From contig NZ_LT629711.1 of the NCBI RefSeq assembly GCF_900104525.1, positions 3,472,001 to 3,536,000 on the forward strand: a DNA stretch of 64,000 nt, read 5' to 3'. This document shows, in pieces, positions 23,076 through 35,491 of this stretch (the first letter of the stretch is position 1; each line of letters begins with the position of its first letter). The notes below the pieces were generated by a model. The model did not search any database. It worked only from the letters and a program-made list of their open reading frames with translations, and was not told where the DNA came from. Source of the stretch: Pedococcus dokdonensis. GTDB lineage: Bacteria; Actinomycetota; Actinomycetes; Actinomycetales; Dermatophilaceae. Both the position numbers and the translations under genes were made by a program.

Positions 23076-23152
23076 CGTCGCTATCTCATGCAAAAGGCGA
23101 GTTAGCGACGCGTCCAACGTCGCAAACTCGCCTTTTGCATGAGATAGCGACG
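23076..23152. repeat. Dispersed palindromic element, copy 1
   Basis: Arms 23076-23110 and 23118-23152 are 35 nt with 34 matches, loop cgtccaa. The arm core ctatctcatgcaaaaggcga is identical to copy 2 at 34742-34811. Additional gcgtcgctatctc fragments precede it (from 23047). Copy 1 follows the L,D-transpeptidase gene. It could terminate that transcript, and its reuse elsewhere points to a REP-like repeat family. Confidence 0.85.
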
Positions 23153-24421: not shown

Positions 24422-26140
24422 ATGGCAACCACGGCACCCGACGCACCGAAGCCCAGCACCACGGCATACCGGGCAGCGCGGGACACGCTCGTCGCGCTCA
24501 GTGGACAGCACGATCGCGCGGTTGCGGAGTTCCGTTGGCCTGACGTGGGGGAGCGGTTCAACTGGGCCATCGACTGGTTCGACGAGGTCGCGCGCCACAA
24601 CGCCACCACCGCACTCTGGATCGTCGAGGAGGACGGGTCCGAGACCAAGCTCGGCTTCGACGAGCTGGCGACGCGCTCCGACCAGGTGGCGGTCTGGCTG
24701 TCCGGGCTCGGGGTGGGCCGAGGTGACCGGGTGCTGCTCATGCTGGGCAACCAGGTGGAGCTCTGGGAGGCGATGCTCGGGATCTTCAAGCTCGGGGCGG
24801 TCGTCATGCCGACCACCGCCGCGCTCGGACCCGCCGACCTGCGCGACCGCGTGGAGCGGGGCGAGGCGAAGGTGGTGGTGGCCAACGCCGCCGACGCCGC
24901 CAAGTTCGAGGAGGTGCCCGGCGACTACCTGCGGGTCAGTGTCGGGAGCGCCGAGGGTTGGCACCCCTACACCGATGCGTATGCGGTCGAGGGCCACCGG
25001 TTCGAGACGGTCACCTCCGCGAGTGACCCCATGCTGGTCTACTTCACGTCCGGGACGACCAGCAAGCCCAAGCTGGTCGAGCACACCCAGGTCTCCTACC
25101 CGGTCGGGCACCTGTCGACGACGTACTGGATCGGAGCCCGGCCCGGCGACGTGCACCTCGCAATCAGCTCCCCGGGCTGGGCCAAGCACGCGTGGTCGTG
25201 CTTCTTCGCCCCCTGGATCGCCGAGGCGACGATCTTCGTCTACAACTACGCGCGCTTCGACGCGGCGGCCCTGCTCGACCAGATCCGGCGGGCCGGCGTG
25301 ACCACGTTCTGCGCACCGCCGACGGTGTGGCGCATGCTGATCCAGGCCGACCTCAGTGGCGGCAGGGGCTCGCTCCGGGAGCTGCTGGCGGCCGGCGAAC
25401 CGCTCAACCCCGAGGTGATCAGCCAGGTGGAGAAGGCCTGGGGACTGGTCATCCGCGACGGCTACGGCCAGACCGAGACGACTCTGCAGGTCGGCAACAT
25501 CGCCGGGGAGCCGCTCAAGCCGGGGTCGATGGGTCGGCCCATGCCGGGCGTCCCCGTCGCCCTCGTCGACCCCCTCACGGGACAGCCGGCCGACGAGGGT
25601 GAGATCGTCCTCGACCTCTCGGAGCACCCGGTCAACCTGATGACCGGCTACCTCGGCGACGAGGAGCGGCAGGCCGAGGCGATGGCCGGCGGTTACTACC
25701 ACACCGGTGACGTCGCCCAGAGGGACGCGGACGGCTACATCACCTACATCGGCCGCACCGACGACGTCTTCAAGGCGAGCGACTACAAGGTGTCGCCGTT
25801 CGAGCTCGAGAGCGTCCTCATCGAGCACCCTGCGGTCGCCGAGGCCGCCGTCGTCCCCGCGCCCGACCCGACGCGCCTCGCGGTGCCCAAGGCCTACATC
25901 GCGCTGGCGCCAGGCTGGGAGCCCGATGCCTCGACGGCCGAAGCGATCCTGCGGCACGCCCGTGAGCACCTCGCGCCCTACCTGCGGGTCCGCCGGGTGG
26001 AGTTCTACGAGCTGCCCAAGACCATCTCCGGCAAGATCCGCCGGGTCGAGCTGCGCGACCGTGAGCAGCACGCTTTCGACGGCGGTCGATCCCTTTCGGA
26101 GGAGTTCCGCGACGACCAGTTCCCCGACCTCAAGGGGTGA
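24422..26140 (+). CDS. Acyl-CoA synthetase (AMP-forming)
   Basis: A 572-residue ANL-superfamily ligase that activates a carboxylic acid as adenylate and transfers it to CoA. P-loop YFTSGTTSKPKLVEH (about residues 206-220), GYGQTET (about 346), YHTGDVAQRDADGY (about 425), and the C-terminal catalytic Lys in KTISGKIRRVELR (about 533). The sequence resembles medium-chain/benzoate-type ligases (FNWAIDWFDEVA at the N-terminus) rather than acetyl-CoA synthetase. Substrate unassigned. It starts 13 bp after pfp. Confidence 0.9.
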   Translation: MATTAPDAPKPSTTAYRAARDTLVALSGQHDRAVAEFRWPDVGERFNWAIDWFDEVARHNATTALWIVEEDGSETKLGFDELATRSDQVAVWLSGLGVGRGDRVLLMLGNQVELWEAMLGIFKLGAVVMPTTAALGPADLRDRVERGEAKVVVANAADAAKFEEVPGDYLRVSVGSAEGWHPYTDAYAVEGHRFETVTSASDPMLVYFTSGTTSKPKLVEHTQVSYPVGHLSTTYWIGARPGDVHLAISSPGWAKHAWSCFFAPWIAEATIFVYNYARFDAAALLDQIRRAGVTTFCAPPTVWRMLIQADLSGGRGSLRELLAAGEPLNPEVISQVEKAWGLVIRDGYGQTETTLQVGNIAGEPLKPGSMGRPMPGVPVALVDPLTGQPADEGEIVLDLSEHPVNLMTGYLGDEERQAEAMAGGYYHTGDVAQRDADGYITYIGRTDDVFKASDYKVSPFELESVLIEHPAVAEAAVVPAPDPTRLAVPKAYIALAPGWEPDASTAEAILRHAREHLAPYLRVRRVEFYELPKTISGKIRRVELRDREQHAFDGGRSLSEEFRDDQFPDLKG

Positions 26141-26174
26141 CTCCGGCGGCGGCCGGAGATCGGACATTTGCCCG

Positions 26175-26237
26175 TTGGCTGAATGCTGGCGCTCGTCTAC
26201 GATCGCTGCGTCAAACTGGGAGCCGGGGAACGTTCCC
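26175..26237 (+). promoter_or_regulatory. Promoter and 12-bp palindrome before NUDIX-like gene
   Basis: TTGGCT (26175-26180) and TACGAT (26198-26203) with a 17-bp spacer form a good promoter. GGGAACGTTCCC (26226-26237), a perfect 12-bp palindrome, lies about 20 bp downstream in the leader, where a bound repressor would block elongation. The ribosome site gtgggag (26254-26260) precedes ATG 26265. Confidence 0.55.
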
Positions 26238-26264
26238 ATCGACGAATCTCGATGTGGGAGAAGC

Positions 26265-26690
26265 ATGAATGGACTGGCGACTGCCGTGCCGCTGACGACG
26301 CGCATCGCCGTCCACGTGCTCGGGGTGGACCCCGATCGTCGCGTCCTGCTCGACCGGGCCCGTCCACCGCTCGAGCCGGTCTGGGGCCTCCCGGGTGCAC
26401 TGGTCGAACCGGGTGAGGACCCCGTCGTCCGCGCGCGTCAGCTGGTCTCCGACGCCGGCGCGCTCACCGCGACCCGGGTGGAGGTGATCGACCTCGAGAG
26501 CCTCGTCGAGGACGGCCTGCACGTCGTCCACATGGTCTTCGAGTGCGGTGCCGAGCCGTCGCTGTTCCCGACCGACGCCGGGTCGACCGCGCTCTGGTGG
26601 ACCCTCCCGGAAATCGTCGGCCTCCGACTGTCGGCCCGCACCCGCAAGGCCCTCGCCTCGCGCTGGGCGTGGATCTGGCCCGACACCTGA
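26265..26690 (+). CDS. NUDIX-fold protein with degenerate Nudix box
   Basis: A 141-residue protein starting at ATG 26265 after gtgggagaagc. The fold is suggested by TTRIAVHVLGVDPDRRVLLDRARPPLEPVWGLPGALVEPGEDPVVRARQLV and a late ALWWTLPEIVGLRLSARTRKAL. The catalytic box should be REUxEExG but reads RQLVSDAG, so the metal-binding Glu residues are Gln, Ser and Asp. Hydrolysis is therefore doubtful, and a ligand-sensing role, as in NUDIX regulators, is possible. It has its own promoter and ends 97 bp before the uncharacterised cluster. Confidence 0.7.
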   Translation: MNGLATAVPLTTRIAVHVLGVDPDRRVLLDRARPPLEPVWGLPGALVEPGEDPVVRARQLVSDAGALTATRVEVIDLESLVEDGLHVVHMVFECGAEPSLFPTDAGSTALWWTLPEIVGLRLSARTRKALASRWAWIWPDT

Positions 26691-26787
26691 TCGCCTCGGC
26701 GTCAGGGCATTCCGCCCATTACGGGCATCTGGTTGCGCGTGGGGGCAGTTGGTCTCACTGGATGGTCGTTGAGGGGTTTCGACCCCG

Positions 26788-28116
26788 TTGGACCCCGAGT
26801 ACCGTGAAAACGGCGGTCCGCCGGGTCCGCTGGGGTATCAGAGCAGGCCGGGGCTGCCAGTGCGGACCTACCCATATGCGTTTCACGTCGCCCTCGACGG
26901 CAATGGACTGAACGGTCTCGAGGGCCGGGCAGGCGTGTGCCTGTTCCACTACGACCCGGTGACCGGTGACCACGCCTACAAGGTCAAGTACTTCGGCGGC
27001 GCCTCCGGGGGACACGCCCCGAATGTCGACCCGACCCGTCGGATCGGCTTCCTCGGCAACACCGGGCAGCACCTGCTCTTCTACGACCTCGCCACGCTGG
27101 AGGAGGCCGACCGCGTCTCGACGCTGAGGTTCGAGGTGCCGGACACGACGATCAAGGGCAGCACCCACCTGGTCTGGCTCGACGACACCCAGTTCGTCAC
27201 GTCCATCGGCGAGCACCTCTGGAAGTTCGACGTCAACCGGCTCACCAAGGCAGAGCAGATCGCACCGCACGGCCTGATGGTCCCGCACGCGATGAAGCGC
27301 ACCGCCTCGGGCCGCTACATCGTCTTCGGTGGCATGGACCACCCGACCCGGGGCGAGGCCAAGGAGGTCGGCATCCTCGACACCCACACCGGGGAGGTGC
27401 GCCGCGTCGCGTTGCCGACCACCTGCTGGCACGTCGTCTGCCACCCGGTGCTCGACGTCTTCTACGCGATCTCGTTCAGGGTCAACGCCGCCGACCGCAG
27501 CGACTACCAGCACTGGGGCATGGCCTGGCTGCGGCAGTACGCGTTCGAGATCGATGCCGAGGACGGTCGGGTGGTGCGGCACTGGGCCGCCGACCGCGAC
27601 CTGCCCGCCCACATCAACTCCGACGTGACGATCAGCGACTCCGAGCTCATCTTCTGCACCGGGGGCAGCCACACCGTGGTGTTCGTCGACCTGCTCACCC
27701 TCAGCCAGCACCGCCTCATCGACGAGCACCCCGGGGCGCTGGAGAGCCTGGCCCTCACCCGCCAGTCGGCCAACACCGTCGCCGAGTCGGTGATGCGCGG
27801 CAACTTCTTCAGCAACTCCAACCTCTACGCCGAGTCGCTGAGGGTGAGCCGGGGTGCACTGGTCGACGGCATCTACGCGTGCCAGCTGTCGGCCGACCAG
27901 ACCCTGCTCTTCACCGCCAACCGCGGCCAGAACCACATCACCGTCTACGACTACCCGTCGCTCGAGGTCCGCGACCGGATCGTCATGCCCGAGCTCCAGG
28001 AGTTCGACCCACGACTGGCCGCCTGGGGTGACCCCCGCCTGGGTTTCCACCACTCCTACCTGGTCAGCCCCGAACCGCCCTCGTCCGAAGCACACCGTCC
28101 CGCAGGAGAGCTCTGA
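26788..28116 (+). CDS. Uncharacterised propeller-like protein, first gene of novel cluster
   Basis: About 442 residues from TTG 26788 (MDPEYRENG), or about 418 from GTG 26860 (MRTYPYAFHV). No signal peptide or membrane segment. The sequence has repeating blocks of about 50 residues with paired strands (GHAPNVDPTRRIGFLGNTGQHLLFYDLATL; GRYIVFGGMDHP; WHVVCHPVLDVFYAISF; ELIFCTGGSHTVVFVDLLTL; YACQLSADQTLLFTANRGQNHITVYDYPSLEVRD), as in WD40/lactonase/YncE beta-propellers. No active-site motif recognised. Family unknown to me. The stop overlaps the next gene (TGATG), so the cluster is one transcription unit. Confidence 0.7.
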   Translation: MDPEYRENGGPPGPLGYQSRPGLPVRTYPYAFHVALDGNGLNGLEGRAGVCLFHYDPVTGDHAYKVKYFGGASGGHAPNVDPTRRIGFLGNTGQHLLFYDLATLEEADRVSTLRFEVPDTTIKGSTHLVWLDDTQFVTSIGEHLWKFDVNRLTKAEQIAPHGLMVPHAMKRTASGRYIVFGGMDHPTRGEAKEVGILDTHTGEVRRVALPTTCWHVVCHPVLDVFYAISFRVNAADRSDYQHWGMAWLRQYAFEIDAEDGRVVRHWAADRDLPAHINSDVTISDSELIFCTGGSHTVVFVDLLTLSQHRLIDEHPGALESLALTRQSANTVAESVMRGNFFSNSNLYAESLRVSRGALVDGIYACQLSADQTLLFTANRGQNHITVYDYPSLEVRDRIVMPELQEFDPRLAAWGDPRLGFHHSYLVSPEPPSSEAHRPAGEL

Positions 28117-28574
28117 TGGCCGACTACACGATCGACACCACCGTCTTCGGCGGCAACACCTTCAGCTCCGACGTCACTGCCGATGTGACGTCCACGCTGA
28201 CCGGCCTCGACCACATGAACCTCACCCTGGCCGGCGGCACCACCAACACCAACAACGGCGAGAACACCGTCCACAGCGACGCGACGATCACGCTGGAGCC
28301 AGTGACCACCACGTCGACGGTCAACACCACCTCGAAGGTCGACTCCGACGCCACCGTCGCCACCACGTCGAGCGTCGACCTCAAGCCGGTGGCGGTCGAC
28401 ACCTGTGTGCGGCTCGAGCTCGGACCACCGCCGGCAACCGAGGTGTGCACCCCCTACGAGCAGACGTGGGGCTGGTCGGTGCTCGGCCTCGAGCTGTTCG
28501 CCCTCACCGTGCGGGGCAGCTCGACCACCCACATCCGGCCCGAGCACCACGGCCCCGTCGTGATCGACCTGTGA
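28116..28574 (+). CDS. Thr/Ser/Val-rich beta protein, unknown
   Basis: A 152-residue protein, ATG overlapping the previous stop. Residues 1-90 alternate Thr/Ser with Val/Ala/Asp (EPVTTTSTVNTTSKVDSD, ATVATTSSVDLKPVAVD), predicting long extended strands without a hydrophobic signal. The last 60 residues change character: CVRLELGPPPATEVC, a pair of Cys 14 apart, then the hydrophobic YEQTWGWSVLGLELFALTVRG. It resembles small structural or fibre-forming proteins more than enzymes. I do not recognise the family. Confidence 0.7.
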   Translation: MADYTIDTTVFGGNTFSSDVTADVTSTLTGLDHMNLTLAGGTTNTNNGENTVHSDATITLEPVTTTSTVNTTSKVDSDATVATTSSVDLKPVAVDTCVRLELGPPPATEVCTPYEQTWGWSVLGLELFALTVRGSSTTHIRPEHHGPVVIDL

Positions 28575-28581
28575 GCCGGTC

Positions 28582-29298
28582 GTGACCACCGCCCGTCGCC
28601 AACCGGCCAAGAAGGTGGCCAAGCCTGCCCGGAAGGCGGCCGCCACCCGGGGCAGCGCACCTTCGACCCCGAAGGCCGCGGCCGTCCCCACGTCTGACGC
28701 GATCGTGCTGACCGGCCCACCCGGCCTGCTGCGGGCCACGGTCTCGGTCGAGAACGCCGTCGACCAGCGGGTCGCCGTGCGCGGACTCACCCTGCACCGC
28801 GCGGGGCGGGAGGCGCTGTCCGGGACGGGCGCCGCGGTGATCGCCCCGGGTGCCACGGCGGAGCTGCCGGTCACCTTCCGCTTGGAGCCGGACACCCCGC
28901 CCGGGGACTACCCCGCCGAGGTCGAGGTCGGGGGCATCCGCCGCGAGGCGGTGCTGCGGGTCGAGCCGGACCTGGCCCTCCACGTGTCACCGCGCCGGAT
29001 GCTGGCCGAGGTCGGCAGCTCCGAGGTCACCCTGACCGTCACGAACGACGGCAACGTGCCGATGTCCCTGGCCGCCGTGGTGCGCGCCCGCACCGACGAC
29101 GGCGGTCCCGACCCGGGCCCCGACGTGACGCTGACCCTCGCCCGCGCGACCACGGTCGCGGCCGGCAGCACGTCCGTCCTCGGCGGCACCCTCGCCGTCC
29201 CCGAGGAGCTCGACCCCACCCGGCGGCACACCGCTCGGGTCCCCGTCGGCACTGCCGACCTCGACGTCATCATCCTGCCCCGCGACGCATCGGAGTGA
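28582..29298 (+). CDS. Beta-sandwich (Ig-like repeat) protein, unknown
   Basis: A 238-residue protein from GTG 28582, 7 bp after the previous gene. The first 35 residues are basic and Ala/Pro rich (ARRQPAKKVAKPARKAAATR), like a nucleic-acid or polyanion-binding tail. Two Ig-like beta-sandwich repeats follow: TGPPGLLRATVSVENAVDQRVAVRGLTL to GGIRREAVLRVEPDL, and HVSPRRMLAEVGSSEVTLTVTNDGNVPMSLAAVV to the end. This is the layout of COG1470/NEW3-type domains that are normally extracellular, yet no signal peptide is present. Function unknown. Confidence 0.7.
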   Translation: MTTARRQPAKKVAKPARKAAATRGSAPSTPKAAAVPTSDAIVLTGPPGLLRATVSVENAVDQRVAVRGLTLHRAGREALSGTGAAVIAPGATAELPVTFRLEPDTPPGDYPAEVEVGGIRREAVLRVEPDLALHVSPRRMLAEVGSSEVTLTVTNDGNVPMSLAAVVRARTDDGGPDPGPDVTLTLARATTVAAGSTSVLGGTLAVPEELDPTRRHTARVPVGTADLDVIILPRDASE

Positions 29299-29303
29299 TT
29301 GCC

Positions 29304-30344
29304 ATGAGCACCACCGCACCCGAGTACCTCACCTCCCTGCGCGACGGCCTCGCCGACGCCGTGCAGCAGTGGGTGGACCAGTCGACGACGGCCTGGGACC
29401 AGTGGTCACGGGCCTGGGGTCCCGTGGCCGAAGCCGCCGGGATGGGTATGCCGGGTGCGTCCGGTGCGGCGTCCGGCCGCCGGGACCGTGGCGGGTCCGG
29501 GCAGCACGGGAAGCACGGTGGGCATGGTGGGCATGGTGGGCACGGTGGGCCCGGCCACCACCACGAGCAGCACGACCATGGACGCCACCACGGCGAGCAG
29601 GGTTGCGGTTGCGGGGGATCCGGTGGGTGCCGCGAACCGGACGGACACGGACACGCCCATGACCACGCCCATGACCACGGCCACTGCCACGACAGCGGAC
29701 CCGGCCACGTCCGCGGCCATGACCACGACCATGGCCACGACCATGGCCGCGACGAGGCGGGTTGCGGCTGCCAGGACCGCTGCGGCTGTCGCGATGCCTG
29801 CGACTGCTGCGTGCCGGCGGCCGACGTCATCGTCCGTGCCCGGGTGGGCGAGGTGCGGGTCGTGCCGTTCCGGCTGCACAACCCCTGGCGCCGGGAACGG
29901 GAGGTCTCGCTGGAGGTCGGACCGTGGCACGGGTGCGACGGAGACGACCTCCAGGTGCGGGCGGTCCTGGAAGAGGAGAAGCTCGTCCTCGCGCCGTGCG
30001 AGGACCGGGTGGTCCGGTTGCTGGTCTCGGTCAGGAGCACGGGCGACGACGGTTCGTCGACCAGCCGGGACGCCGCCGACCAGGCGACGGACAAGCAGGC
30101 CGACAGCAAGGCCGACGACGCGCCCGCCAAGGCGGCCCGGGCGGCTGCCGCCACGGCGCGCGAGCCGGTCGACGTGGTCGTCGGCCCCCGCGGACGCGGC
30201 AAGGACGTCGAGTCGTGCGTGAGTGCGTATGCGGATGTGCGCTTCGAAGGATGTGCCCGTCCCCAACGAGTGGCGGTCGTGGTGCTGCCGGCCGAGTGCG
30301 ACCCGGTCGACGTCGGCTGCGACTGCGGCTGCTGCTGCTGCTGA
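29304..30344 (+). CDS. His/Cys-rich putative metal-binding protein with helical head and beta domain
   Basis: A 346-residue protein from ATG 29304 (ribosome site ggag at 29292; GTG 29295 is an alternative). Three parts: an amphipathic helix head YLTSLRDGLADAVQQWVDQSTTAWDQWSRAW (residues 7-37) like phasin helices; residues about 55-165 with repeats GHGGHGGHGG, HGHAHDHAHDHGHCHD and CGCQDRCGCRDACDCC; then a beta-sandwich region (VIVRARVGEVRVVPFRLHNPW) and a charged Ala/Asp/Lys linker. It ends in GCDCGCCCC. I count about 22 Cys. Such composition binds Ni, Zn or Cu in other proteins (HypB, SlyD, metallothionein). The family is unknown to me. Confidence 0.75.
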   Translation: MSTTAPEYLTSLRDGLADAVQQWVDQSTTAWDQWSRAWGPVAEAAGMGMPGASGAASGRRDRGGSGQHGKHGGHGGHGGHGGPGHHHEQHDHGRHHGEQGCGCGGSGGCREPDGHGHAHDHAHDHGHCHDSGPGHVRGHDHDHGHDHGRDEAGCGCQDRCGCRDACDCCVPAADVIVRARVGEVRVVPFRLHNPWRREREVSLEVGPWHGCDGDDLQVRAVLEEEKLVLAPCEDRVVRLLVSVRSTGDDGSSTSRDAADQATDKQADSKADDAPAKAARAAAATAREPVDVVVGPRGRGKDVESCVSAYADVRFEGCARPQRVAVVVLPAECDPVDVGCDCGCCCC

Positions 30345-30354
30345 GGAGACCGCG

Positions 30355-31053
30355 ATGAGCGAGACGAACGGCACCGACGAGACCCTGGCCCGGATCACCG
30401 AGCTGGCCCGCCAGGCCCTGCAGTCCCAGTCGACCCTGGCCAAGCAGTCGCTGGAGCTCGGCCGCGCGGCCCTGTCAGGCGACGTGGACCGGTCGACGGC
30501 GAGTCGCGCCTACCTCGACGCGGTGACCCGCGAGGGGGCGCGCTACTGGCGTGAGGCCGGGGCGCTCGGCCTCGACTACGCGAGCGAGCTGATGGCGCTG
30601 GGGACGCGCAGCGCGGCTCGGATCATCAGCGACGCCTCGGTGGCCGGCGGCACCCGCGTGCGGAGGACCACGAACGGTGCCCACCGCGGGGGCGCCCCCC
30701 AGGCGCCCCCGACCGAGGAGGACGATGGCCTCCGGCGCTCGCGGGTGCACCTGCGAGCAGCTCTGGGACAGACCGCCCAGGCCACCGTCACGGTGGTCAA
30801 CCGGCACCCGCGGGCCCGACGGGTCGAGCTCGAGCCGAGCGAGTTGCGTGACGCCACCGGCACCGTCGTCGCCGTGACCCTCGAGGTCGACCCCGACCAC
30901 GTCACGATCCCAGCGGGCGAGGAGCACCAGGTGCGGATCTCCGCCGACCTCGACGAGGGCGTCGTGCAGCCCGGTCAGCAGTACGTCGGCAGCGTGACGG
31001 TCAGCGGCGGCGACGAGGCCATGTTGGAGGTGACCGTCGAGGTCGCGGACTGA
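30355..31053 (+). CDS. Phasin-like helix plus beta-sandwich protein
   Basis: A 232-residue protein from ATG 30355 after gaggag. Residues 8-105 are helical and amphipathic ([59 protein letters not shown]), resembling phasins or coiled coat proteins. A disordered linker (RGGAPQAPPTEEDD) joins a C-terminal beta-sandwich (LRAALGQTAQATVTVVNRHPRARRVELEP to the end). The same head-linker-sandwich plan occurs in the His/Cys-rich neighbour. The last 53 bp overlap the end of the converging SDR gene. Confidence 0.72.
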   Translation: MSETNGTDETLARITELARQALQSQSTLAKQSLELGRAALSGDVDRSTASRAYLDAVTREGARYWREAGALGLDYASELMALGTRSAARIISDASVAGGTRVRRTTNGAHRGGAPQAPPTEEDDGLRRSRVHLRAALGQTAQATVTVVNRHPRARRVELEPSELRDATGTVVAVTLEVDPDHVTIPAGEEHQVRISADLDEGVVQPGQQYVGSVTVSGGDEAMLEVTVEVAD

Positions 31054-32140
31054 CCGCCGAGTCGGCGGACGGGTCTCCCAGCGGCCCGGCCACGAGGTCC
31101 CGCGCAGCCCGGACCTCGGGGTGCAGTCGCAGGCCCTCGCGAGCCCAACGGGGCAGGTCCGGGCTCACGGCCAGCCAGGCGAGTGAGGCGGCGACGGCCG
31201 CCCTGGCCGGCCGCGCGGCATACCCGAGGTCGTGCGCCTTGGCCGAGGTGTACCAGTAGAACCGGCCGACGGTCGACGCCTCGTCGCGGGTGGTCAGCGG
31301 TCGCTCGTCGCGCACCCCCGCCCACCACTCCGCCGCGGCGGAGACTGCCCACGCGCTCCCTGCGTCCATCTCGGCGAACGGGCCGGGGAGGCCGGCCAGG
31401 TCTGACACGAGGGTGTGCAGCATCCGCCAGCTGACGTCCTCACCGCCGAGCAGGTAGCGCTCACCGGCCACCCCTTGCTCGAGCAGCGTCAGGTGGCCGG
31501 CTCCGACGTCGCGGGCATCGACCACGTTGCACCCGCCGGGGAAGGTGCTGCGCGTGGGGTCGAGCAGGTAGCGCAGGACGATCGCGTTGCTCGGTGCCAG
31601 ACGGTTGAACGGACCGCCCAGCACGACGGTCGGCAGCGCGAGGACGACCTCGAGGCCGAGCCGTCCCCCGGTCTCCAGGGTGACTGCCTCCTGGGCGACC
31701 TTGCTGGCGTAGTAGGCCGGGGCCGGCTCGAGGCCGAGCTCGTCGCGCTCGGAGCGGGCGCGGGGGAGCAGGTTCGACCCGCGGGTGACCGACGACGAGG
31801 TCACCACGACCCGGCGCGCGCCGGCCGCTGCCGCTGCCTCGAGGACGGTGCGGGTGCCGTCGGTGTTGACCTGGTCCACCTCGGCCGCGCGCGCGTCGCC
31901 GAAGGCGTAGACCGCGGCGCAGTGCACCACGGCGTCGCACCCGGCCAGGGCCGCGCGCAGGGCTGCGGGGTCGGTGAGCGCAGCCGTCGCCGACGGCACC
32001 TCCCGGCCGGCGAGGGTCAGCGGTCCGCGACGTCCCGGGTCCGGGCGGGCCACCGCGACCACCTCGTGCCCTGCGTCCAGCGCGGCCAGGGCGACCTGGC
32101 TCCCGACCATCCCGGTGGCGCCGGTGACCGCGACCCTCAT
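31001..32140 (-). CDS. NAD(P)-dependent epimerase/reductase (extended SDR)
   Basis: A 379-residue extended short-chain dehydrogenase. The Rossmann motif VTGATGMVGSQVALAAL is at residues 5-21, DAVVHCAAVYAFGD follows, and the catalytic Tyr/Lys are in YYASKVAQEA, with the Ser in VVTSSSV. It resembles dihydroflavonol reductase/HpnA-type epimerases. The C-terminal tail (SPRPRRSPPTWPRRRR) is Arg/Pro rich and antisense to the end of the phasin-like gene. ATG 32140 overlaps the stop of the upstream DUF362-like gene (ATGA), so the two are an operon facing the novel cluster. Confidence 0.88.
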   Translation of the reverse strand: MRVAVTGATGMVGSQVALAALDAGHEVVAVARPDPGRRGPLTLAGREVPSATAALTDPAALRAALAGCDAVVHCAAVYAFGDARAAEVDQVNTDGTRTVLEAAAAAGARRVVVTSSSVTRGSNLLPRARSERDELGLEPAPAYYASKVAQEAVTLETGGRLGLEVVLALPTVVLGGPFNRLAPSNAIVLRYLLDPTRSTFPGGCNVVDARDVGAGHLTLLEQGVAGERYLLGGEDVSWRMLHTLVSDLAGLPGPFAEMDAGSAWAVSAAAEWWAGVRDERPLTTRDEASTVGRFYWYTSAKAHDLGYAARPARAAVAASLAWLAVSPDLPRWAREGLRLHPEVRAARDLVAGPLGDPSADSAVSPRPRRSPPTWPRRRR

Positions 32141-34107
32141 CGCGGGCCCCTTACGTGACGGAAGCCGTGGGCATCGAGCTCGGTGCCCGAATCTCTTGTG
32201 CCACCAGCAGATTCCGCCTGGCTCGCACTCGCCCGCTGGTCGACCGCCCAGTCCGAGACCGCGCCCAGCACCAGGTCGAGGGCGCGAGTCAGCAGCGGCT
32301 CCGCGGGGTCCATCGGCGGGCGCCCGATCCGGAACTCGCGCCCCTCGAAGCACGCCTCGAGGTTGTCGAAGGTGGTGGTGAAGAACCGGCGGTAGGCCTC
32401 CTCGAGCAGCGGGTTGCGCAGCTCCGGGACCGACGCGAGGTCAACGCCCGACCAGCTGTCCGGCAGCGCAAAGAGCTGCCGTCCGCGCACGACGACCCGG
32501 GTGCCACCGGGCGTGCGTGAGAAGGTCAGGCTGCCGTCGTCGTAGTCCGCAGATCCGTTGGGGCTGCTGACCGTTCGCCAGGTCAGCCGGTGGGTGTCGG
32601 TGCTGCGCTCCACCAGCTCGATCTTGCAGACGTCGATCGGCTCACCGCCCCAGGTCGCCAGGTAGTTGGGCTGGGGGAGGTAGAGGTTGCGTTCCGCCTG
32701 GCGGGTGCGGGTCGTCCCGCCCCGTGCCGTCGACGAGACCGTGACGCGTCGGCCCCCGAGGTAGTCGGCCATCAGGCTGATCCCTGCTGCCACGTCGACC
32801 CGTGCCACCCACTGGTCGAAGTCTGCCCGCACGTCGCGGGCCACCTCGAACACCGTGGCCCCGTCGACGAGCCGCCAGCGCATGCCGTCGGCGTTCTCCG
32901 GCAGCTCCTCCACCAGGGCGTCGAAGGGTGCGAAGAAGGCGGGCAGCCCGTCATAGCGGTCAACCGGGTATGCCGCCGGGTCGAAGCCCAGCGGCACCTC
33001 GCGCCGGTCGACGGTGTCCTTGTCGAAGGTGGTCGACCAACCGAGCGCGCCGAGGCGGGCGGCCCCGACGGCGCCCAGGACTGCGGTCAGCGGGAGGTGG
33101 CCGGCCGGGTCGTCCGCCGCGACGACCAGCGGCGTGAGCAGGTCACGCAGCGTCGTGAGCACGGGGTCGCCAGGCTCCGCGGCGTCGTCCGGCCCGCCGG
33201 TGGCAGCGCTCAGCACGCGGGCCAGCCTCGGCTCGGCGGCCACCGACCCGGCCGCGGCGCGGGCCAGCGGATGGGCGGCGTGAGCGCCGTCGAGCGACGC
33301 GAGGCGACCCTCGGTGCGGCCGGTGGGTGGGCCGACGGCGAGCAGTGCGCGCTCGAACAGGGGTGCGGCGGACCGGTCCAGCCCCAACAGTGCCGCGGTG
33401 GCGCTGTCGGCGGCGAGCAGGTCGGTGGCCACCACGAGGGCACGGCTGTCGAGCGGCTGCGGCAGCCGGCCACCGTCGGGACCGACGCTTGCGGCGAGGG
33501 CGTCGACGACCGCGAGGGTCGGCGGCAGGTGGGTGAGCAGGTCGGCTCCGACGTCGGCGGGGTCGGCGCCGGCCACCTCGGGAGCCGCACCGAGAAGCGT
33601 GCGCAGGCACGCGGCATACCCCTCGGTCAGGTCGGTGACCGCGCGGCCGACGACCACCCGCGTCGGCGACTCCACCCAGCAGCGCGAGACGAGACGACCG
33701 GACAGCACGCTCGTCCCGGGCACCGGCGCGCCCACCAGGTCGGCGCCGAGGTCGACCACGTCGTAGGCCGCCCCGGCCGGCGTGCGCCCGCCGAGCCCCG
33801 CCTGCCGGGCGAGCTCGGACACCGACCGGTGGCCGCGGTCGCGGTCGTACGACGAGATGCTGCTGCCGACCACGACCGGGTCACAGCCACGGTGGCGCAG
33901 CTGGTCGACGACCGCGTGGACCACGGCGGCGCTGACCGGGGTCGGCTGGCGCAGCCGCACGAGCACCACGGCGGCGTCCGAGAGCGGGGGGTCGAGCGCA
34001 GTGAGCGCCGGCCCGAGGGCGTCGACGTCCCCGCCACCGGCCACGATGCAGACCAGCGGTTCCCGGCTCGGCACGCCGCGGGGTGCCACCCGTCCATGCT
34101 GTGCCAC
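32137..34107 (-). CDS. Two-domain protein: DUF362-like N-terminus, SRPBCC-like C-terminus
   Basis: 656 residues from GTG 34107. Residues 15-350 resemble DUF362 (SDAAVVLVRLRQPTPVSAAVVHAVVDQLRHRGCDPVVVGSS and a central DVGADLLTHLPPTLAVVDALAA), though the 4Fe-4S cysteines found in some DUF362 proteins are absent. From about residue 385 a lipid-pocket-like beta region follows (GMRWRLVDGATVFEVARDVRADFDQWVARVD; GTRVVVRGRQLFALPDSW; LLEEAYRRFFTTTFDNLEACFEG). The first assignment is moderate, the second tentative. It is coupled to the SDR gene by ATGA overlap and convergent with the 26788-31053 genes. Function unknown. Confidence 0.7.
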   Translation of the reverse strand: MAQHGRVAPRGVPSREPLVCIVAGGGDVDALGPALTALDPPLSDAAVVLVRLRQPTPVSAAVVHAVVDQLRHRGCDPVVVGSSISSYDRDRGHRSVSELARQAGLGGRTPAGAAYDVVDLGADLVGAPVPGTSVLSGRLVSRCWVESPTRVVVGRAVTDLTEGYAACLRTLLGAAPEVAGADPADVGADLLTHLPPTLAVVDALAASVGPDGGRLPQPLDSRALVVATDLLAADSATAALLGLDRSAAPLFERALLAVGPPTGRTEGRLASLDGAHAAHPLARAAAGSVAAEPRLARVLSAATGGPDDAAEPGDPVLTTLRDLLTPLVVAADDPAGHLPLTAVLGAVGAARLGALGWSTTFDKDTVDRREVPLGFDPAAYPVDRYDGLPAFFAPFDALVEELPENADGMRWRLVDGATVFEVARDVRADFDQWVARVDVAAGISLMADYLGGRRVTVSSTARGGTTRTRQAERNLYLPQPNYLATWGGEPIDVCKIELVERSTDTHRLTWRTVSSPNGSADYDDGSLTFSRTPGGTRVVVRGRQLFALPDSWSGVDLASVPELRNPLLEEAYRRFFTTTFDNLEACFEGREFRIGRPPMDPAEPLLTRALDLVLGAVSDWAVDQRASASQAESAGGTRDSGTELDAHGFRHVRGPR

Positions 34108-34166
34108 TCCCTCAATGAAACCAGCGGGCCCTCGCCAGCGACAGGGGGCGATGACATAGTGAGCAG

Positions 34167-34415
34167 GTGGCCGACGACATCGACATCCAGCAGCACATCA
34201 AGGGGCTCATCGACGAGGAGCACGGCCTGCGCAGCCGGCTCTCGGCCGGTGAGATCAGCGTCGAGGAGGAGAACGCCCGCCTGCGCAGCCTCGAGGTCGA
34301 GCTCGATCAGTGCTGGGACCTGTTGCGGCAGCGTCGCGCCAAGCGTGAGTTCGGCGAGGACCCGGCGGAGGCCGCCGTGCGTGACGAGCGGACGGTAGAG
34401 AACTACCGCGGCTGA
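34167..34415 (+). CDS. DUF2630 family protein
   Basis: An 82-residue charged helical protein: DDIDIQQHIKGLIDEEHGLRSRL, EISVEEENARLRSLEVELDQCWDLLRQRRAKREFGEDP and VENYRG match DUF2630, a small coiled-coil family common in actinobacteria, function unknown. GTG 34167 lies 6 nt after CATAGT (34155-34160), a possible -10 box giving a leaderless mRNA. It is divergent from the DUF362-like gene. Confidence 0.88.
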   Translation: MADDIDIQQHIKGLIDEEHGLRSRLSAGEISVEEENARLRSLEVELDQCWDLLRQRRAKREFGEDPAEAAVRDERTVENYRG

Positions 34416-34550
34416 TCGGGTCTGACCGCCTGCTCGGCGGATCGGCCGTCACGCGGCGTTCACCGGGTGTTCCGGCGTGGCTGGCTGGACACAGCGGGCG
34501 CAGGTTCTACCCTCGAAGGAGGCCGGAACCCGACACGAGGGGGTGCGCCC

Positions 34551-34715
34551 ATGCGCACAGCACTTGCCCACCTGCACGTTCCCCACCCGCACGTCGAGCA
34601 CCACGAACCGACGTGGTGGCTCAGCCACAGCCTCGCGGCCGTCGCCGCCGCGGCCCTGATGATCTACGGCGCCGCCGTGCTCGTCGTCCTCGCCGCGGTC
34701 CTGCTCTTCTCCTGA
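34551..34715 (+). CDS. Small single-span membrane protein
   Basis: A 54-residue protein, ATG 34551 preceded by gaggggg. A His-rich start (HLHVPHPHVEHHEPTWW) is followed by one membrane helix (LAAVAAAALMIYGAAVLVVLAAVLLF). The His cluster next to the membrane could bind metal or be incidental. No family recognised. The dispersed palindrome follows within 30 bp of its stop. Confidence 0.6.
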   Translation: MRTALAHLHVPHPHVEHHEPTWWLSHSLAAVAAAALMIYGAAVLVVLAAVLLFS

Positions 34716-34741
34716 CCCCCGACACCCCCCCGCCCGGCGGC

Positions 34742-34811
34742 GCTATCTCATGCAAAAGGCGAGTTAGCGCCGGGCGTGAGCGGCGCTAACTCGCCTTTTG
34801 CATGAGATAGC
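34742..34811. repeat. Dispersed palindromic element, copy 2
   Basis: Arms 34742-34772 and 34781-34811 are perfectly complementary over 31 bp with loop ggcgtgag. The arm shares gctatctcatgcaaaaggcg and the next seven bases (agttagc) with copy 1 at 23076-23152. It lies between convergent genes (small membrane protein, MBL hydrolase) and could terminate both. Confidence 0.85.
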
Positions 34812-34840
34812 TCCGCTGCGGGAGCTGGGGAGCTGGTGAG

Positions 34841-35491
34841 CTACCAGCGGCGGTCGATCCATTCCTCGAGGTGTGGCAGCTCGGCGCCGATCGTCGTCGA
34901 CTCGCCGTGCCCGGGCAGCACCACGGTGTCCTCGGGCAGGGTGAACAGCCGTCGCACCGACTCGATGATGGTGTCGAAGTCGCTGTAGGCGTGGCGGGTC
35001 GCGCCCGGCCCGCCCGGGAAGAGCGTGTCGCCGGTGAAGACCACGCCCAGGGCCGGGGCGTGGAAGCAGCACGAACCCGGTGTGTGGCCGGGGGTGTGCA
35101 GCACGTGCAGCTCGACATCACCGACGGTGAGCACCTGGCCGTCGGCCAGCGTCGCGTCCGGGGTCACCGGGTAGAGCTCGTCCCAGAGGAACCGGTCCGC
35201 CTCGTGCAGGTGCGCCGGCGCTCGGGTGCCGTCGCACACCTCACCGACCGCGTCGAGGTGGTCGAAGTGCCCGTGCGTGACGAGGACGCCACGCACCCGC
35301 TGCTCGCGCGGGATCGACTTCACGATCGCGCGGCCGTCGTGGCCGGCATCGATGACGAGGCACTCGCTGTCGTCACCGACCACCCAGGTGTTGTTCTCGA
35401 GGGTGAGTGCGCCCTCGGGTCGGTCGAAGGTGCCTGCGGTGACGATACGCGCGACGCGCACGCCACCCGGGGAAGGTGCGATGTCCGGCAT
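34841..35491 (-). CDS. Metallo-beta-lactamase-fold hydrolase (glyoxalase II-like)
   Basis: A 216-residue protein with the zinc motif THGHFDHLD (HxHxDH), then [15 protein letters not shown] and PGHGESTTI, the order expected for glyoxalase II/MBL hydrolases. ATG 35491 is preferred over ATG 35500 because ggggagg lies 9 nt upstream of the former and abuts the latter. In actinobacteria such proteins often act on mycothiol or acyl thioesters, but the substrate here is unknown. It is convergent with the small membrane gene across the palindrome. Confidence 0.9.

Follow-up and report, generated by a model that had tools for sequence, protein, structure and literature searches.

A conserved module of a beta-propeller, a DUF362-START fusion protein, a dehydrogenase and Ig-domain proteins in Pedococcus dokdonensis

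We analysed 64,000 nucleotides of the forward strand of Pedococcus dokdonensis (NCBI RefSeq assembly GCF_900104525.1, contig NZ_LT629711.1, positions 3,472,001 to 3,536,000; hereafter the window), a species whose genome is a single contig of 3.94 Mb. Five adjacent plus-strand genes in the window, g1 to g5, had been singled out by a sequence-only reading as a cytoplasmic cluster without recognisable function. Our analysis shows that these five genes and two convergent neighbours, named here F2 and F1, form one conserved, co-inherited module, and that the pair of the propeller g1 and the START protein F1 is its most constant core. The sequence-only reading is partly supported: the five genes do recur together, but it drew the set too small, and its statement on function was too strong, since F1 and F2 are recognisable as carrier and dehydrogenase types. 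The module probably handles a greasy molecule. We tentatively favour the reading that its enzymes and carriers act on a hydrophobic compound and are scaffolded or coated by cytosolic proteins. The genes of the module are as follows (window positions; aa, amino acids; Ig, immunoglobulin).

g1, 26860..28116, plus strand: seven-bladed beta-propeller, 418 aa, family F0
g2, 28116..28574, plus strand: Thr-rich beta-type protein, 152 aa, family F6
g3, 28582..29298, plus strand: Ig-like sandwich protein with an N-terminus rich in Lys, Arg, Ala and Pro, 238 aa, family F4
g4, 29304..30344, plus strand: probable metal-binding protein, 346 aa, family F8/F14
g5, 30355..31053, plus strand: helical head and Ig-like domain, 232 aa, family F3
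F2, 31001..32140, minus strand: NAD(P)-dependent dehydrogenase/epimerase, 379 aa, start placed from the HpnA match
F1, 32137..34107, minus strand: DUF362 (LarA-fold) domain fused to a START/SRPBCC domain, 656 aa

All five plus-strand open reading frames (ORFs) are real and as tightly spaced as had been described, with g1 and g2 sharing 1 bp (28116) and the later gaps measuring 7, 5 and 10 bp. The ORF of g1 stands, but the start given for it earlier (TTG at 26788) does not; GTG at 26860, which yields 418 aa, fits better and is most likely the start, because near homologs such as P0001 and P0041 begin with MRTYPYAFH. F2 and g5 converge tail to tail with a 53 bp overlap, and the stop of F1 overlaps the start of F2 by 4 bp. 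Neither Pfam nor NCBIfam has a model that scores over its cut-off in g1 to g5, and even at E ≤ 1 no encapsulin, gas-vesicle, phage-tail or microcompartment model of these databases matches them. Judged by hydropathy only, none of the five has a segment resembling a signal peptide or membrane helix, the highest 19-residue Kyte-Doolittle mean being 1.58 against 2.37 in one PAP2 control. The cytoplasmic location and the metal-binding member proposed earlier both fit the sequences. A scan of 26100-34900 gave no promoter-like sites (0.1 expected) and two terminator-like sites (0.9 expected, standard deviation 0.8).

Conservation of the module

A scan of genome contigs with the propeller alignment detected 107 loci; the analysis used the 80 best, near relatives included. 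Together with the window this makes 81 loci, 48 of which extend for 7 kb or more to each side of the propeller; the other 33, with a flank below 7 kb, were left out of the counts that follow unless stated otherwise. Recurring partners were found by clustering the surrounding ORFs. Profiles of the partner genes were built partly from the same loci, and the g4 profile can also catch the g5 Ig domain (L016, L038). Phyla were taken from record titles and taxonomy lines, and several of the records are metagenome-assembled genomes.

An F1-type START domain is present in 46 of the 48 well-flanked loci, and propeller and START therefore most likely act together. DUF362 is found in 36 and F2 in 37, all 36 DUF362 loci also having F2. 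The four genes g2, g3, g4 and g5 occur together in 20 loci, every one of which has START, DUF362 and F2 as well. Since g2 to g4 are found only with this DUF362-START and dehydrogenase form (20/20), they most likely serve it, as scaffold, coat or metal supply. Neither g2 nor g3 occurs in any of the 48 loci unless the rest of g2 to g5 is there too. Over all 81 loci, the g2 to g5 matches lie on one strand in 26, and the stop codons follow the order g2-g3-g4-g5 in 25; L038 has a single ORF matched by both the g4 and the g5 profile, so that g4 is not shown there. Complete sets occur in Actinomycetota, Pseudomonadota, Bacteroidota, Verrucomicrobiota and Chloroflexota (L042, an Anaerolineae bin).

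Synteny and co-occurrence counts thus bear out the expectation of a set that recurs together in many genomes and belongs to no known family. Independent occurrence of the members, which would have spoken against a unit, is not seen for g2 to g4, which are all present or all absent in the 48 loci except L016, where only g4/g5-type profile matches remain. It is seen for the propeller and for the g5 type, which is wider spread (32/48).

Presence, absence and history

Of 248 genomes from the order, five contain the propeller, and the same five have full-length F1 and a strong g5 match (E < 1e-50); one further genome is weakly matched by F1 in the DUF362 part alone, and g5 matches five more weakly in its Ig part. 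A sample of 396 genomes from the phylum has propeller and full-length F1 in the same four, with DUF362-part matches only in two more. Neither the propeller nor F1 nor g5 finds a match in G108, a genome of the same genus. By blastn, G108 aligns with the window from the acyl-CoA synthetase gene to 26130, and the alignment resumes at 34168 after 16 bp. The following two features belong to this difference.

Indel block, 26131..34167: 8.0 kb carrying g1 to g5, F2, F1 and a nudix gene, absent at the matching place in G108
Nudix gene, 26265-26690, plus strand: Pfam NUDIX, 29 bits against a cut-off of 21.1, within the block missing from G108

In a 15.5-kb stretch of G108 (L107), tblastn gave no match for g1 to g5, F2, F1 or the nudix gene, and blastn of the 8.0-kb block against it returned only short matches of at most 34 columns. 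As the flanks match while the genes of the block lack matches, the block is present or absent as one piece. The 1.4 kb of L107 that cover the region upstream of the acyl-CoA synthetase gene did not contain the phosphofructokinase-type gene (named from sequence) that the window has there.

A palindromic dispersed repeat with the core CTCATGCAAAAGGCGAGTT lies at 23084-23144 and 34746-34807 of the window. It resembles repetitive extragenic palindromes and bacterial interspersed mosaic elements (REP/BIME-like). The genome holds 63 exact copies, 30 in forward and 33 in reverse orientation (none for the backwards control), which occur singly, as inverted pairs and in short arrays.

In the propeller tree of the 48 loci, the complete-cassette loci need five state changes, three of them forced by well-supported branches; the loci with START alone need two and sit in one mostly actinobacterial part. 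Pseudoalteromonas and Rheinheimera stand beside Saccharothrix and Crossiella in this part, and in these four the propeller and START lie among aldehyde dehydrogenase (Pfam) and class-III aminotransferase genes. An acyl-CoA-dehydrogenase-like gene (Pfam below cut-off) accompanies them in some loci, and a non-ribosomal peptide synthetase is present in L048 and an MMPL exporter in L083. Propeller and START thus form a core that can be used without g2 to g5. These neighbours, the patchy distribution and the absence of the whole block are what a plain secondary-metabolite pathway would give, in which g2 to g5 are accessory proteins of the enzymes, for docking or stability, with no body or coat. However, four proteins kept in order across phyla, three of them with homologous Ig domains and none assigned to a catalytic family, seem more than a pathway needs, and we consider this explanation a serious one that falls on the unlikely side.

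Two kinds of neighbourhood were noted besides. Eight loci (L048, L051, L052, L059, L068, L025, L028 and L083) have propeller and START in apparent unnamed biosynthetic clusters, where clustering finds a class-III aminotransferase in all, an aldehyde dehydrogenase in seven and an acyl-CoA-dehydrogenase-like gene in five. In two START-less loci, the propeller homolog has urease genes as direct neighbours or no more than about 10 kb away. Pfam identifies UreB, UreC and UreF in Actinokineospora (L034:12151-15181); in a Sandaracinaceae metagenome-assembled genome (L084:395-3242) it identifies UreF, and clustering adds a UreC-type ORF. With two cases among 81 loci, the urease neighbours may be due to chance.

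The propeller and its enzyme partners

The AlphaFold model of g1 has a pLDDT (predicted local distance difference test) of 93.7 and aligns to propellers in both Foldseek and VIA-align, which confirms the earlier description of this protein as propeller-like. With the blades assigned by hand from the strand list, six of the seven blades have a conserved His where the inner strand begins or close to that point (conservation over 49 sequences, placed on the model). A search of PDB sequences with the single g1 sequence gave no match at E ≤ 1; with the g1 profile there was one, a cilia protein at E 0.052. A plasmid search for g1 returned no match.

F1 falls in the DUF362/LarA superfamily (Pfam clan CL0471) by both domain match and fold test, its relation to LarA coming from VIA-align and the Pfam match. 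Its second domain has the helix-grip fold of START/SRPBCC in the fold test and matches Polyketide_cyc2 in sequence below the cut-off. The PDB search with the F1 profile gave nothing at E ≤ 0.1. Pfam assigns DUF362 no function; DUF362 and DUF2088 are treated in PMC11770544. The C-terminal tail of F1 (window 32137-32200) is modelled with low confidence, and D-x-x-G-F-x-H is kept there in the alignment of 25 homologs; a strict pattern finds this motif, which resembles a docking peptide, in 40 of 49 homologs.

F2 matches Epimerase (3.7e-24) and 3Beta_HSD (1.9e-12) in Pfam. Among NCBIfam models, HpnA is the nearest (TIGR03466, 190.5 bits against a cut-off of 367.65), SdmB comes next (NF052578, 99 against 600) and OleD is fourth (NF042422, 55.3 against 580), so that all three lie far under their cut-offs. 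From the START domain and the kinship of F2 with dehydrogenases of the HpnA/SdmB/OleD kind we infer a hydrophobic substrate.

Other lineages add further partners, namely F5, a stand-alone SRPBCC-like protein (Pfam below cut-off), and F7, a PAP2 phosphatase. A small family of about 123 aa, F21, was seen near the module in five loci (for example L038:9565-9936, L044:1460-1891 and L077:577-945); its member in L044 has no Pfam match.

The proteins g2 to g5

The C-terminal part of g2 has P113, G124 and G134 invariant and E126 nearly so (alignment A6, 21 sequences), and Pfam at E ≤ 1 returns nothing for this protein. As the sequence-only reading had proposed for three Ig-like sandwiches, homologous Ig domains are shared by g3, g4 and g5: profile-profile comparison gives 98.7% for g4 with g5, 95.9% for g5 with g3 and 69.7% for g4 with g3, against 0.3% for one reversed control. 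The helical head said to be shared by two proteins is weakly suggested by the same method (40.8% between the g4 and g5 heads).

The protein g4 consists of a Trp-containing helical head, a His-rich and Cys-rich middle region, an Ig-like domain and a Cys-rich C-terminus. With 28 His and 22 Cys in 346 aa it is as His/Cys-rich as had been noted. Four Cys are invariant in 18 aligned sequences (alignment A5), long His runs are limited to some lineages, and the overall pattern is consistent with metal binding. For g5 (alignment A3, 27 sequences), Pfam fn3_5 matches at E 4.2e-5, below the cut-off, and the PDB search with its profile returned two glycoside hydrolase entries and one serine peptidase at E 0.034-0.068. 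A g5-type example from Streptomyces has the head without the Ig domain.

The basic N-terminal tail of g3 is real in the window, and such tails are more frequent in its family, with 10 of the 19 sequences (alignment A7); they occur also in 8 of 25 F1 and 6 of 17 F7 sequences. Under a stricter rule they are found in 6 of 28 sequences, compared with 21 of 339 control ORFs, and basic C-terminal tails are common in F2 (13/48). Basic tails were not used as a sign of DNA tethering because the ORF starts are uncertain.

Proposed function and alternatives

In the mechanism that we propose, the START domain of F1 would hold the greasy substrate, aided by the START-like F5 in other phyla, and F2 would oxidise or reduce it using NAD(P). 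The propeller g1, with a predicted ring of histidines at its centre, might act on the START-bound compound, possibly through a bound metal, and the His- and Cys-rich segments of g4 may hold or hand over metal. The proteins g2 to g5, with their Ig domains (g3 to g5) and helical heads (g4 and g5), would be a scaffold or coat that holds the enzymes and the product body.

Several observations weigh against this reading. In 28 of the 48 loci the propeller occurs without g2 to g4, and it is therefore probably not itself a part of a coat. A His at the same blade position is also found in ordinary repeat propellers and does not by itself make a metal site. The top 50 Foldseek matches of F1 are START-type structures only. 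In the alignment of 25 DUF362 domains, neither His nor Lys reaches 80% conservation at any column (one column is His in 18 of the 25 and Val in the window), which suggests that racemase-like nickel chemistry is unlikely. P. dokdonensis itself has no PhaC_N (PF07167) match at E ≤ 0.001, a search whose control was positive in one of 14 named genomes (Caulobacter), and no match to SQHop_cyclase_C or SQS_PSY; a common polymer, hopanoid or carotenoid product therefore does not explain the module. Hopanoids and carotenoid or squalene products were rejected as candidates on this ground. Compared by hhalign with nine genuine phasins (16 loci extracted, nine kept for agreeing ORF length), the g5 head reached 0.8% and the g4 head 0.5%, where reversed controls gave 0.7 and 1.0%. 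The metal and the coat, filament or granule that the sequence-only reading proposed, finally, are predictions from sequence and model.

A bolder form of the favoured reading, conceivable but doubtful, would be a new cytosolic compartment or coated body in bacteria of at least five phyla. In it, the Ig proteins g3 to g5, two of which have amphipathic-looking helical heads, and the Thr-rich g2 would make a shell or scaffold round a hydrophobic product. The START-fused LarA-fold protein, the dehydrogenase and the propeller, as a histidine-ring protein representing a new class of enzymes, would make and move this product.

Another possibility is that g2 to g5 are a metal-handling complex and not a coat: g4 would collect a metal and, together with the Ig proteins, load g1, a catalytic metalloenzyme acting on the START-bound substrate. 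The abundance of His and Cys in g4, its four invariant Cys and the conserved His in six of seven g1 blades agree with this. However, g1 lacks a g4 match in 27 of the 48 well-flanked loci, so that g1 does not need it, and long His runs are confined to some lineages; we regard this explanation as unlikely.

A polyhydroxyalkanoate (PHA)-type granule with g4 and g5 as phasins is highly improbable. Pfam Phasin_2 (PF09361) does match 3 of 27 g5-type proteins at E ≤ 0.1 (best E 0.001), the window g5 not being among them, and 2 of 20 genomes, those of L022 and L056, have just one Phasin_2 match each (E 0.0097 and 0.0127), which coincides with the g5 homolog when coordinates are compared without contig names. 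However, all these matches are under the Pfam cut-off, and 11 of the 20 genomes carry genuine phasins at other places. The sequence-only reading had likened the helical heads to phasins; homology between them is not supported, as profile-profile comparison does no better than its reversed controls, and together with the missing PhaC_N match this led us to reject a PHA granule. That unrelated hypothetical genes became neighbours by chance, which the want of a named family for g1 to g5 might suggest, is next to impossible given their order and co-occurrence across phyla and the presence of propeller and F1 in the same genomes in two samples.

We judge it unusual that at least seven genes, four of them in fixed order, are kept together in distant phyla with no named function. 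A full-text search, whose reach excludes most subscription papers and preprints, found no literature on this gene set. The occurrence of the propeller and START core in natural-product-like clusters hints at a useful enzyme activity. Should g2 to g5 assemble into a body, bacteria would have an inclusion of a new kind, and if the propeller is a metalloenzyme, it would represent a new enzyme family. As cultured carriers exist, for example Pedococcus and Terrabacter strains, both possibilities are testable.

Comparison with known systems

Like the phasins of PHA granules, g4 and g5 have short helical heads and are cytosolic by sequence. In contrast to phasins, their heads are without detectable homology to that family and are attached to Ig domains, and the genome lacks a PHA synthase domain match. 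The propeller g1 can be compared with the seven-bladed propellers of the YVTN/6-phosphogluconolactonase type and of the nitrous-oxide-reductase type, to which its identity is 8-15%. The HpnA, SdmB and OleD short-chain dehydrogenases are the nearest relatives of F2, yet F2 stays well under the curated cut-offs of all three. F1 differs from the LarA superfamily and DUF362 proteins by its START fusion and by having no His or Lys conserved at the 80% level in the 25 aligned sequences, and compared with other START/SRPBCC domains (StarD4/5, CERT, carotenoid-binding protein, aromatase/cyclases) it has a strongly conserved signature of its own.

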